Origin: Clytia hemisphaerica
Taxonomy: Eukaryota > Cnidaria > Hydrozoa > Leptothecata > Clytiidae
Direction: 5' to 3'
NCBI GenBank assembly: GCA_902728285.1
Contig: CACVBU010001197.1
Location: 799,870 to 863,869, forward strand
Length of the DNA: 64,000 bases
Shown: positions 14,428 to 18,999 of the stretch, piece after piece
How positions within the stretch are numbered: the first letter of the stretch is position 1
How the letters are laid out: every line of letters starts with the position of its first letter
Made by a program: the position numbers and the translations under genes
The notes under the pieces: generated by a model
Database searches by the model: none
What the model was told of the DNA's origin: nothing
Seen by the model: the letters and a program-made list of their open reading frames with translations, nothing else

Positions 14428-17400
14428 TTATCTCATTTTGTACGTGTGATGATCTTTGGTCGTCATTAACTCTCCTGTGAATTCATGGGTGATCTCAAGA
14501 TCCAAGTCGCGCTGAAACAAAAGGTGCAAACATTTAGATTGAAATATTGGTTGAATCAGCGAGATTGCGAATAGCAATAGGAAATCAGCTAATTCTATCA
14601 AGATGTGACAAGGTGTGCATTCAGATTGTCATTTTCATCCTGTGGCACATATCGAGTATATGCTTCAGGTGAAGAAATTCTTTTCATCATTATGCAGCTT
14701 CGTAGTTAGACACAATTAGAATTTCTTGAATTCGGCTGGTGTATCGAAAAGATTCGTTGAATTTCGATATCTTCCAATTTTCCAATTTTTAAAAATTTAA
14801 TCTACTTTCCCAACCTAAAACCACCAATAAAACCAACCAGTAAAAAGGGCGGATTGTTCGAGTTAAAAAAGTCGAAAGACTTACATTGTTTCGATCGTTA
14901 GGTTTTATAATAAATTCACCGGTCACAACTTCACCACGTTTTGCTGTAATCGGTTCGTTGATGTAAAACACCGTCTGCTTCCAATGAGTGTATCTTGCTT
15001 CGGGACCTAGGAAGGAGAATTTCATATTTTTAAAATTTAATAAACCGTCAAACAGTAACAATATTAAAATCGAGAGGAAACGTTGCAGCGGTAACACAAG
15101 GAATAAGCAGAATTTAGGGCTGGTCTGGTTGAGAAGTTTGCGCTGCTATGATTAAGTAAAACAATGCCAAGAAGAATCTTAAAAAAGGATAACCAAAAGC
15201 CAAGTTTAGTCTACAGTTGCAGACACTTTAGTCAAGATAGAATGATGTAATCATGTAATCACCTGTTGAGAATCCAGTGAATTTATGACAAGGAGCAAAT
15301 TCGACATTGAAGTAGACAACAAAAGCGTGAAGGTAGTCATCCCGACGTGCTGCTATCTTGAAGGGAGCTGTGAACGCTAAATCTTCAACTTTGCATGTTA
15401 AAAGGTCGAGGTCCTGAAATATGAGAAATAAGAAACACATAAATCAATTAGTTCATCTAATTGTTTCAATTTGGTATCAATATAATGGACTTTCGAATTC
15501 AGAATGTCAGATTTCAACCTGGATAAAACTTCAGGTGAAGAAATTCATTCTTTTCATCACAATTCAACTTTAAATTATTTCACTGCAACCAATACAGAAG
15601 AGAACAGACCAGTCTGAATAAACAGAAAAAACTGAGGACTTTTGTTGCATTCAGAATGTCGTTATCAACCTTGAAATTCAGGTGAAGAAATTCTTTTCAT
15701 CGTTATGCAGTAAAAAACCTAATTAATTTTAAAAATACTTGCACATTCTTCCCTTAAAAGCAAATTGGGATGGTTAATAAATAATGGTGTACGGAAACAG
15801 TTTGTTTTGCATTCAGAATGTCAGTATCAACCTTAGAAATTCAGGTGAAGAAATTCTTTTCATCATCATGCATAAGATTCCTTAATTAAGGTATGTGTTC
15901 ACCTTCCTTGACACATTCTCTTTAATTGATCATATCTTTAGAACAACAAATTTTTATACATCAAAAGTATATATTTTCTGAAAGCCAATAATATTCTCTT
16001 TCTAATGGTAAAAGTTTCAGCTGAATTTAAAAAACTGGGCAGGATATAATTAAAATCTTAAGAATTTTAACCTTACCTACTTCAAAGAAGTTAAAGTCAC
16101 CCATAGCTTTTGAAATTTGAAAAAATAATTTCGATACTATGTTCCCAATAGATTGAACCAAAAAAATGTCTTAGGATTTTTTTTTGGATCGACTTTAACT
16201 CGAGAAAACTTAAAAATTGTTAAAATTTGGAAAAAAATCATTCATTTCTCGATTTTTTTCCACTTAACCTGAAATTGTGAAGCTTTAACTCGATTAGAAA
16301 AAAAATCCTAAGACATTTTTTTAGTTCAATTCTTTGCCGAAAATATAAAAAAACAAGCTAGATGCTGAATGGACCTACCTGATGATGAAAGTTAGATAGC
16401 AATGCGAGGAGAAAAAAATCAGTCAGAAAATATATCGTTTAGCGAAAATGCATAACGCAATAAATTCATCATTGATTGTTGATGGGGGGAGAGGGAAGGG
16501 TTGTAGGGAAAAATTAATAGAAAGTTCTGGTCGCAAAAATCAGTTTTATTGACAATTGAATCATGCTTGATGGTGAGCATTGTTATCAATAATGTTTTTG
16601 TGTGAAGAACATAGAAATACAAGGAAAACATATAATGAAAATCTGCAAAGACGGCGATTTCCGGCATTTTTTGAGCATTGCAAATACGCATCTTTCTGCA
16701 AAAAATCAGAAAAAGCTAAAGATGAAAATTCGAGAAAATGTAAAAAAAAAACGGTTTTCCGGCATGTTTCTGGCATTTTCGGCCGGGAAAAAATATTTTT
16801 CGAAAATCGGGCTCCGTCACATTTTAGGTATTGTCATTTTGCATCAGTGTGCAAAATTTCATGAAAAAATATAAAGTACAGCTCGAGAAATTCAAGAAAT
16901 ACCGTTTTTCCGGCGAAAATAGGCTGTTCCGGCGATTTTTAGAAAGTTCCGGCTTCAAAAATCACTTTTATTGACAATTAAACCATGCTTGATGGTGGAC
17001 ATTGCTACAAACAATGTTTTTGTGTGAAAAAACAACGAAATATAAGGAAAAAGTCCAATGAAAATCTGCAAAAACGGCGATTTCCGGGATATTTCCGGCA
17101 TTTTCAGCCGGAATAGAATTTTTCTCAAAAATCGGACTAATCCATGTTTTAGGCATTGCTAATACGCATCTTTGTGCAAAAAATCAGAAAAAACTAATGA
17201 TGAAATCTCGAGAAAATGCCAAAAAACCGGTTTTTCCGGCATATTTCCGGCATTTTCGGCCGGAAATGAATTTTTTTCGAAAATCGGGCTCCGTCACATT
17301 TTGGGCATTACCATTTTGCATCTTTGTGCCAAAAATTAGGAAAAACTAATGAGCCAATCCCGAGAAAAGCTAGTAACGAACGGACGAACGGACGAACGAA

Positions 17401-18999
17401 CGAACGAACAGAGGTTAATTTATAGGACCTACAGCCCACCGGGGTAGGTCCAAAAATTAAGTTCATGGCTAAATGCTATGGGTGACTTTAACCTCGTTAA
17501 AAGTAGTATGGTATGGTAAAATTTCATTTTTTTCTACATCAATTTGAAATTTTTGACGAGATAATTACTGTTTAATTAAGTAATCAGAGAAATGTGTCAA
17601 AAATGTTACTGTTCAATAGATGTGAGAATAAACATCAGCTGAATTCTCTCTTTTCTCCTTGTTGTTTCCGAAAGAGACAATTATTTGAGTAAATAATCCA
17701 TCATAAGACGAACTTTGTTTTAAAATTTAAATGGTTATAACTCTGGATCAAAAAAAGATTTTAAGATCGCGATTTTACCAAAATGAAATCCAGTAACTTT
17801 TCTTCCACTTTGACTGAAGAAAAATTTTTTGACAAAAAATCGGAAAAAAGGTGTACACATACCTTAATCTAATATAATTAAAAATATGAAGCTGCATAAG
17901 AAAGTTTGTTTTGCATTCAGAATGTCAGTATCAACCTTAGAAATTCAGGTGAAGAAATTCTTTTCATCGTCATGCATAAGATTCCTTAATTAATCTAATA
18001 ATTAAAAATATGAAGCTGCATAAGAAAGTCTGTTTTGCATTCAGAATGTCAGTATCAACCTTAGAAATTCAGGTGAAGAAATTCTTTTCGTCATTATGCC
18101 AAAACGTTATCATAATGTATGTTAAATTACCTTGAAGCGACAGGCATCAGTTGCTATTTGTCTATGTTCAACAACATCAACGATGGGTTCGTTTAACGCT
18201 ACGTTACGAATATGGCTCATGTCGAATCCATAAACATTATCCCACCAGTTGATCTTTTCTTCTTTATAATCACGGTCTTCAATAGCAGTTATCCACATCG
18301 ATGCTTTGTCTGGAAACATGAGACCATCAGGTTTGAGCCATTTATCACGAGCGTAGATGACAGTGTCCAACATGGATTCATATAACAAACAATATCCCAT
18401 CCATTCACTGATGATGATATCAACTTTTTCTACTGGCAACGTTACCTCTTCAACCTTTCCTTTGATAAGTGTGATATCTAAAACAATTTTAACAGACTTT
18501 TGAAAAAAATGGACGTTCAAACATTGGGGCATTATTTAAAAAAAAGGAAATCCTTTTCTTTCGTTTTTTTCTCTTTAGACTACTTGAGAAACACTGCTGC
18601 TTTTAAAATAAACAAAGCCTTACCTTTTTCAAATCCATTTTGTTTAACAATTTCTTTAGCGTGATCAATGATGGAGGACATATCAATACCATACACATGT
18701 TTTGCGCCTGCTTTTTTTGCAAACATACTCAAAATGCCAGTCCCACAACCAACATCAAGAACAACTTTTCCTTTGAAGAGATGTCTGTTATTGTACATAG
18801 AATTTCGATAAGTGAGTGTGCGTACTTCATCTTTCAACATTTCTTCATGGATACCAAAGTGAGCATATGAGTCGAAATAATAATCCTTGCTTGTCATGTC
18901 ATTGACTGCAGGTTTCTCATCAGAGGGAGGGCATTTCTTTTTGAGGACATCACCATTAACATGGCCGTTTGTTGTTGTTGTTGAGACTGCTGCTGCCAT
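14428..18999 (-). CDS. PRMT1: Protein arginine N-methyltransferase 1 (five main coding exons)
   Basis: Type I arginine methyltransferase; it makes asymmetric dimethylarginine on histone H4R3 and RNA-binding proteins. Exons on the minus strand: 18624-18999, 18131-18477, 15263-15413, 14885-15006, 14428-14511. All junctions are GT-AG and the sum is 1080 bp (359 residues). Motifs: [15 protein letters not shown] (about 40-54), SAM motif [10 protein letters not shown] (80-88), double-E loop [13 protein letters not shown] with E150 and E159, HWW-type motif, and THW (298-300); the C-terminus is TYKMR. Length equals the usual 350-370. An acceptor AG lies just upstream of this ATG, and the frame stays open through it (KVE), so an upstream exon at 23082-23135 may add an N-terminal extension. 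Introns 2 and 4 host snoRNA copies. Confidence 0.97.
14616..14696 (-). ncRNA. C/D-box snoRNA, copy 1 (PRMT1 last intron)
   Basis: Minus strand: terminal stem TGCAT/ATGCA, C box ATGATGA (plus-strand 14684-14690), guide AAAGAATTTCTTCAC, D' box CTGA, C'-like GGATGAA, D box CTGA (14621-14624). About 81 nt, longer than the other copies between D' and C'. It lies within the intron 14512-14884 on the host-gene strand, as intron-processed snoRNAs do. Confidence 0.75.
15495..15565 (-). ncRNA. C/D-box snoRNA, copy 2 (PRMT1 intron 2)
   Basis: C box GTGATGA (15554-15560), D' CTGA, C' near GTTGAAA, D box CTGA. The terminal stem here is GAATT/AATTC instead of TGCAT/ATGCA; both sides changed together, which supports pairing. 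The guide core GAATTTCTTCAC next to D' is unchanged. Confidence 0.75.
15646..15709 (-). ncRNA. C/D-box snoRNA, copy 3 (PRMT1 intron 2)
   Basis: 64 nt with stem TGCAT/ATGCA, C box variant ACGATGA, guide AAAGAATTTCTTCAC, D' CTGA, C' TGATAA-like and D CTGA. The C-box change (U to C) may weaken processing. Confidence 0.65.
15808..15872 (-). ncRNA. C/D-box snoRNA, copy 4 (PRMT1 intron 2), best-formed copy
   Basis: 65 nt with stem TGCAT/ATGCA, consensus C box ATGATGA (15860-15866), 15-nt guide AAAGAATTTCTTCAC, D' CTGA, C' TGATACT, D CTGA. Only about six bases separate C' from D, so the D' guide is the likely functional one. It would direct methylation at the fifth base from D'. Target not assigned. 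Confidence 0.8.
16152..16330. repeat. 179-bp palindrome
   Basis: The arms ATTGAACCAAAAAAATGTCT and the inverse of ATTGAACTAAAAAAATGTCT continue through TAGGATTTTTTTT. The centre has CTTTAACTCGA repeated in direct orientation. It is probably the sub-terminal part of, or a hairpin MITE inside, the TTAA element. Confidence 0.65.
16370..17452 (+). mobile_element. TGGACCTACC element, copy 1 (PRMT1 intron 2)
   Basis: Ends TGGACCTACC ... GGTAGGTCCA. The interior has several degenerate repeats of a unit with TTTCCGGCATTTTCGGCCGG, TCGGGCTCCGTCACATTTT, GCATTGCCATTTTGCATC and GTGCAAAAAATCAGAAAAA. The right end has a GAACGGACGAACGAAC minisatellite and GTTAATTTATAGGACCT. Copies 2 and 3 are at 28443-29435 and 62538-63353. 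Non-coding. Confidence 0.8.
17912..17976 (-). ncRNA. C/D-box snoRNA, copy 5 (PRMT1 intron 2)
   Basis: Nearly identical to copy 4 but with C box ACGATGA. It is part of a roughly 124-bp tandem duplication (17867-18115) that includes flanking intron sequence (AATATGAAGCTGCATAAGAAAG), showing recent local copying. Confidence 0.7.
18036..18100 (-). ncRNA. C/D-box snoRNA, copy 6 (PRMT1 intron 2), possibly decayed
   Basis: Second unit of the tandem duplication, starting 30 bases from the intron 2 donor. C box is ATGACGA and the 5' stem is GGCAT against ATGCA, so both signals are weakened. Guide and D boxes are intact. It may be a pseudo-copy. Confidence 0.55.

Follow-up and report, generated by a model that had tools for sequence, protein, structure and literature searches.

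The box C/D small nucleolar RNAs (snoRNAs) of the SNORD36 family are known as U36 in vertebrates and as snR47 in yeast. In human, U36C is directed to A3703 of 28S rRNA and U36A to A668 of 18S rRNA, and in chicken two U36 copies lie in introns 3 and 4 of RPL7A (excerpt of PMC2653536). Yeast snR47 is assigned to Am619 of 18S rRNA and also to Am2220 of 25S rRNA (excerpt of PMC5199042), while another source gives 28S Am3703 as the family target, numbers the yeast site Am2218, and lists Am3697 as the target of U37 (excerpt of PMC3511168). Here, we analyze a repeated unit in the introns of PRMT1 in a 64,000-nucleotide stretch of the hydrozoan Clytia hemisphaerica (contig CACVBU010001197.1; the whole stretch is called the window below). 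Judging from their boxes, stem and guide, the six units are very probably intron-encoded box C/D snoRNAs of the SNORD36 family, multiplied by duplication inside this single host gene.

A 16-mer that joins the guide to the D' box, GAATTTCTTCACCTGA, occurs in six exact copies on the minus strand between positions 14665 and 18084 of the window (Table 1, where copies are numbered 1 to 6 in PRMT1 strand order), and each remaining match to the 12-base guide in the window carries two substitutions. The five exons of the host gene give 359 residues, with PRMT1 as the best PDB match (6nt2, E = 3e-154) and PRMT8, a close paralogue, as the next (9e-149). Copies 1 to 5 are in the second intron counting from the ATG exon (about 18130-15414) and copy 6 is in the fourth (about 14884-14512), and their lengths are 65, 65, 65, 64, 73, and 81 nt, in order. 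An earlier sequence-only reading had placed a six-copy repeat of 64 to 81 nt here, in introns 2 and 4 of PRMT1, all of which is correct, and had classed the units as C/D-box guide snoRNAs, a class that their features support.

The D box CTGA is exact in all six copies, and the C box agrees exactly with RUGAUGA in copies 3, 5, and 6. Across the terminal stems 29 of 30 cells are paired; the 5-bp stem that had been described holds for five copies (one with a U-G pair) and fails for copy 1, which has 4 bp. A scan of both strands of the window that ignored the guide looked for a C box with no more than one mismatch, followed 46 to 110 nt later by an exact CTGA (the D box), and for a stem of 5 bp or more. 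It returned 10 places, of which six contained an internal exact CTGA as D'. Five of these were copies of the unit and the other, at 30640-30727, lies inside an open reading frame (ORF); copy 1 was missed because its stem has only 4 bp. A model built from these same six copies (R1) scored them at 70.7 to 96.7 bits, and the next match in 74 kb reached 16.2 bits.

The assignment to a family comes from Rfam and from the guide. In a relaxed search of the 3.6-kb stretch (E up to 5), SNORD36 (RF00049, gathering threshold 30) matched all six copies, two of them above the threshold (31.7 and 30.9 bits) and the others with 28.4, 28.1, 27.5, and 23.1 bits. The family D' guide, adjoining the D' box CUGA, is invariant in the six copies; in the five copies for which the alignment is shown, AAGAAUUUCUUCACCUGAA matches the family consensus exactly, and copy 5 contains GAATTTCTTCACCTGA. 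Since guide and D' box are those of the SNORD36 consensus, the 28S target can be assigned by family. The target, which the sequence-only reading had left unassigned, would thus be the published one of the SNORD36/U36 D' guide, 28S Am3703. In these RNAs, the methylated rRNA base is the one paired with the fifth guide position. Applying this rule to the U37 consensus and A3697 puts A3703 six bases on, and the A3703 so placed is the A opposite the fifth guide base of the PRMT1 copies (both in a presumed 28S stretch). Eukaryotic 28S rRNA was sought in the viral_contigs and genome_contigs collections, with no match in either.

We propose that the units are freed from spliced PRMT1 introns and would then bind 15.5K, NOP56, NOP58, and fibrillarin. 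The D' guide GAATTTCTTCAC is predicted to pair with GUGAAGAAAUUC in 28S rRNA, and this pairing would direct 2'-O-methylation of the A opposite the fifth guide base (Am3703 in human, Am2220 in yeast). Such targeting presupposes that the 28S rRNA of this species carries GTGAAGAAATTC.

Like vertebrate SNORD36A, SNORD36B, and SNORD36C, which are hosted by RPL7A, the PRMT1 units possess C, D', C'-like, and D boxes, a terminal stem, and the D' guide AAGAAUUUCUUcacCUGAA, and like the U36 genes of chicken RPL7A they form more than one paralogue within the introns of one housekeeping gene. They differ from the vertebrate genes in their host, in their number (six copies of 64 to 81 nt, five in one intron), and in having no guide for 18S A668. 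Family equivalence gives yeast snR47 the same large-subunit target, but snR47 also guides 18S Am619 and the PRMT1 copies do not have that guide. The target region of SNORD37 (U37) overlaps as well, but its guide is shifted (Am3697), and the U37 alignment shows a gap of 6 bases within the guide, whereas the SNORD36 alignment shows none. We rejected SNORD37 (RF00440), which matched only two of the six copies (27.0 and 23.2 bits against a gathering threshold of 45) and has the shifted target. The weak Rfam matches of snoR160, snoZ162, snoR12, and SNORD57 to the units were also discarded, all being far under gathering.

Several points weigh against the SNORD36 assignment, and we give them together with the evidence that they qualify. 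Four of the six copies score under the SNORD36 gathering threshold. Three copies (1, 2, and 4) have one substitution in the C box. None of the 12 guide columns is variable, compared to 19 of the 37 columns outside boxes and guide (Fisher p = 0.0014; 64 ungapped columns of an 85-column alignment, with 21 gapped columns dropped), but the test ignores shared ancestry, is post hoc, and treats columns that are not independent. The stem of copy 5 (copy 2 in the sequence-only reading, which saw a compensatory change on both sides) shows, in register with the boxes, one two-sided change from C-G to A-U, while the other change is U-A to U-G. This single compensatory pair is weak covariation, because the 29 of 30 paired cells are matched by 83 of 500 shuffles. 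The fold of copy 6 surpasses those of all 200 shuffles, owing to a hairpin between D' and C', but the folds of the other five copies are no better than shuffles; an unremarkable fold is usual for C/D RNAs.

The rRNA side adds further points of this kind. A presumed 25-base core of 28S rRNA had no match in the assembly; the ribosomal DNA may be missing from it, the search may have passed it over, or the core used may differ. No copy has the D-side guide of the family for 18S A668 (consensus GAGCUUUUUAAC), and the SNORD36 alignments are gapped at that place. Finally, we searched the same genome (417 Mb in 951 contigs) for exact matches to the 16-mer GAATTTCTTCACCTGA, a search whose counts for repeats are lower bounds only.

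That search gave 6 matches, all in the PRMT1 cluster, and none for a reversed control, a result that argues against a dispersed transposon. The sequence-only reading had named copies scattered genome-wide as a transposon as the outcome that would overturn its proposal, and the exact matches are not scattered. It is hardly credible, then, that the units belong to a family of transposons, or to some other repeat dispersed in the genome, that carries snoRNA-like sequence. The unit is repeated, copies 1 to 3 lie within a longer duplicated stretch, and a transposon-like element sits among them, but all six matches to the 16-mer in the 417 Mb fall within the cluster (exact matches were counted, diverged copies lying outside the genome-wide search) and the element, which has ends and a TTAA duplication of its own, was inserted into the array and is not what carries it. 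On these two grounds, the exact matches confined to the cluster and the insert's own ends, a repeat carried by a transposon was rejected.

The insert between copies 2 and 3 ends in inverted copies of GGTATGTGT(A/T)CACCTT (16 bp, 15 of 16 alike) flanked by the duplicated TTAA, and contains internal repeats of about 150 bp with no ORF of at least 150 codons. We take it to be like a non-autonomous TTAA-specific (piggyBac-like) element. Within it, at 16152-16330, there is a long imperfect inverted repeat with 47-nt arms that are 87% complementary; its match to MIR9563 (23.3 bits against a gathering threshold of 90) is probably due to chance. Copies 1 and 2 lie in a duplicated stretch whose period is 124 nt. 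When the flanks of the insert are joined, they align with copy 1, the spacer between copies 1 and 2, and the beginning of copy 2, with two mismatches, a 2-base gap, and a period of 126 nt; the tandem array of copies 1 to 3 therefore predates the insert. Copies 1 to 4 are identical to one another at 59 to 64 of 64 to 65 positions, compared to 49 to 55 of 64 to 65 for copies 5 and 6 against copies 1 to 4 and 50 of 69 for copy 5 against copy 6. By these identities, copies 5 and 6 either arose earlier or have changed faster than copies 1 to 4. The guide had been described as constant with a D' to C' spacer that varied from copy to copy. The guide is indeed the same in all six copies, but the spacer is identical in copies 1 to 3; in copy 4 it is one base short with a few differences beyond that point, and in copies 5 and 6 it differs.

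Not all copies need be active. From what can be read in the DNA, at least copies 5 and 6 appear to be working U36 genes, and probably copy 3 too, with the others redundant or decaying; copies 1, 2, and 4 may be weak or dead duplicates. A stronger version, which we consider evenly balanced, is that the copies are mostly relics of duplication, with one to three working U36 genes (3, 5, and 6) and copies 1, 2, and 4 as unexpressed pseudogenes. It is a sub-case of the SNORD36 assignment, and the probabilities of the two overlap. The one-base C-box changes of copies 1, 2, and 4 favor it, two of them falling at the second base, the flipped-out U recognized by 15.5K, as do the breaking of the tandem array of copies 1 to 3 by the transposon-like element and the stem of copy 1, the shortest. 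A certain distance to the intron end favors splicing-coupled snoRNA release, and copies 5 and 6, with 80 and 104 nt of intron downstream, are near it. Box mutations are commoner and terminal stems weaker in snoRNA pseudogenes (excerpt of PMC12309372). However, the filter in that text, which classes low-confidence predictions as pseudogenes when the C-box score is at least 2 and the D-box score at least 1, selects none of the six (copies 1, 2, and 4 score 1 for C and 0 for D). The guide is unchanged in copies 1, 2, and 4 too, which says little because copies 1 to 4 are too alike, and the top SNORD36 score belongs to copy 4, whose C box is changed.

Since the 18S A668 guide is absent, the PRMT1 units would have a single target, as human U36C does; that U36C is named for 28S A3703 suggests that the 18S guide is not obligatory in the family. 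We looked in the genome for a separate U36 gene with this guide, using the exact pattern GAGCTTTTTAACN{0,2}CTGA, and found none. The pattern had one match (C291), as did its reversed control, and this match showed no C box upstream on the reverse strand by eye, is repeated within its locus, and matches no snoRNA family. The D side of the units may have another role, an unlikely one in our estimate: TGACATTC would be a second, accessory rRNA-pairing element, with which each snoRNA would clamp two neighboring stretches of 28S rRNA or guide a nearby second methylation, for which the U of GAAUGUCA in 28S rRNA is the site that bears on the matter. Copies 1, 2, 3, and 5 carry this element and copy 4 carries GACATTC; both are complementary to GAATGTCA, which lies immediately 5' of the D' target in a presumed 28S segment that may not be that of this species. 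However, copy 6 does not have it (TGACAAT is found there), the element is only 7 to 8 bases long with the first D-box base as its final one, and the complementarity was noticed post hoc among copies that partly share ancestry. It is a lead for accessory pairing, not a result.

In the rest of the window, a LINE-type retrotransposon ORF with endonuclease and reverse transcriptase domains (10566-13739, plus strand) lies downstream of PRMT1 on the opposite strand. A DDE_Tnp_4 transposase ORF (31718-33007, minus strand), presumably Harbinger-type, has a Myb/SANT-like ORF beside it (30198-31178, plus strand); the two are the usual pair of Harbinger-type transposons. The exons at 34373-49183 (minus strand) include a FYRN match and a CXXC zinc-finger match under its cut-off, from which we presume a KMT2/MLL-type histone methyltransferase gene. 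A tRNA search set for the bacterial code found none in the 64-kb window.

Table 1. The six snoRNA units, their host gene, and the insert in the array (window positions; SNORD36 gathering threshold, 30 bits)
Feature	Position	Strand	C box and terminal stem	R1 (bits)	SNORD36 (bits)	Remarks
Copy 1	18036..18100	-	ATGACGA (1 substitution); 4-bp stem	92.7	28.4 (under gathering)	
Copy 2	17912..17976	-	ACGATGA (1 substitution); 5-bp stem	95.6	27.5	
Copy 3	15808..15872	-	ATGATGA (consensus); 5-bp stem	96.7	30.9 (over gathering)	
Copy 4	15646..15709	-	ACGATGA (1 substitution); 5-bp stem	89.6	31.7 (over gathering)	Best SNORD36 score of the six
Copy 5	15494..15566	-	GTGATGA; stem with one two-sided change	70.7	23.1	4-base insertion 5' of guide; 80 nt of intron downstream
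Copy 6	14616..14696	-	ATGATGA (consensus)	78.2	28.1	Intron 4; D'-C' hairpin; 104 nt of intron downstream; fold z -3.6
PRMT1 coding span	14428..18999	-				ATG at 18999, stop codon 14430-14428
PRMT1 exons	about 18999-18624, 18477-18131, 15413-15263, 15006-14885, 14511-14428	-				Splice sites by eye
Transposon-like insert	15890..17863	.				1974 bp, between copies 2 and 3; terminal inverted repeats, TTAA target duplication

The RNA itself is familiar; what is unusual is the host gene and the high copy number. Among the papers listed, none was seen to report PRMT1 as a snoRNA host: its mention in PMC12150615 (excerpt) is part of a cited title, and in PMC5316204 (excerpt) PRMT1 appears as a partner of HBx. 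Among the matches listed for cnidarian snoRNAs there was no direct precedent, and the main text of PMC3412847, on introns of sponge ribosomal protein genes, contains no U36. Clustered snoRNA hosts in Drosophila include Uhg1-8, lola, Arpc2, and dom (excerpt of PMC13228274), and Art1 is absent from the main text of that paper. In chicken, duplication within a gene is described as probably the chief way in which snoRNAs have expanded (excerpt of PMC2653536), and snoRNA hosts change among broadly expressed genes (excerpt of PMC3511168).

PRMT1 methylates the GAR domain of fibrillarin. A far-reaching reading, and a very improbable one, is that U36 left its usual hosts for PRMT1 in this lineage and multiplied there to six copies, with five forming a polycistron in one intron, tying the dose of the guide to an enzyme that modifies the snoRNP methyltransferase. 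If this were true, the dose of a 28S guide would be coupled to PRMT1, and freeing several snoRNAs from a single intron would require endonucleolytic cutting. For the SNORD36 assignment as such, PRMT1 would be an added host for an ancient family of guide RNAs, a case that fits the drift of snoRNAs among broadly expressed hosts described in PMC3511168 (excerpt). It would also be a clear example of duplication within a host in which the order of events can be read, tandem duplication first and then the transposon-like insertion, and the five copies in one intron would make a handy test of how many snoRNAs a single intron can release.

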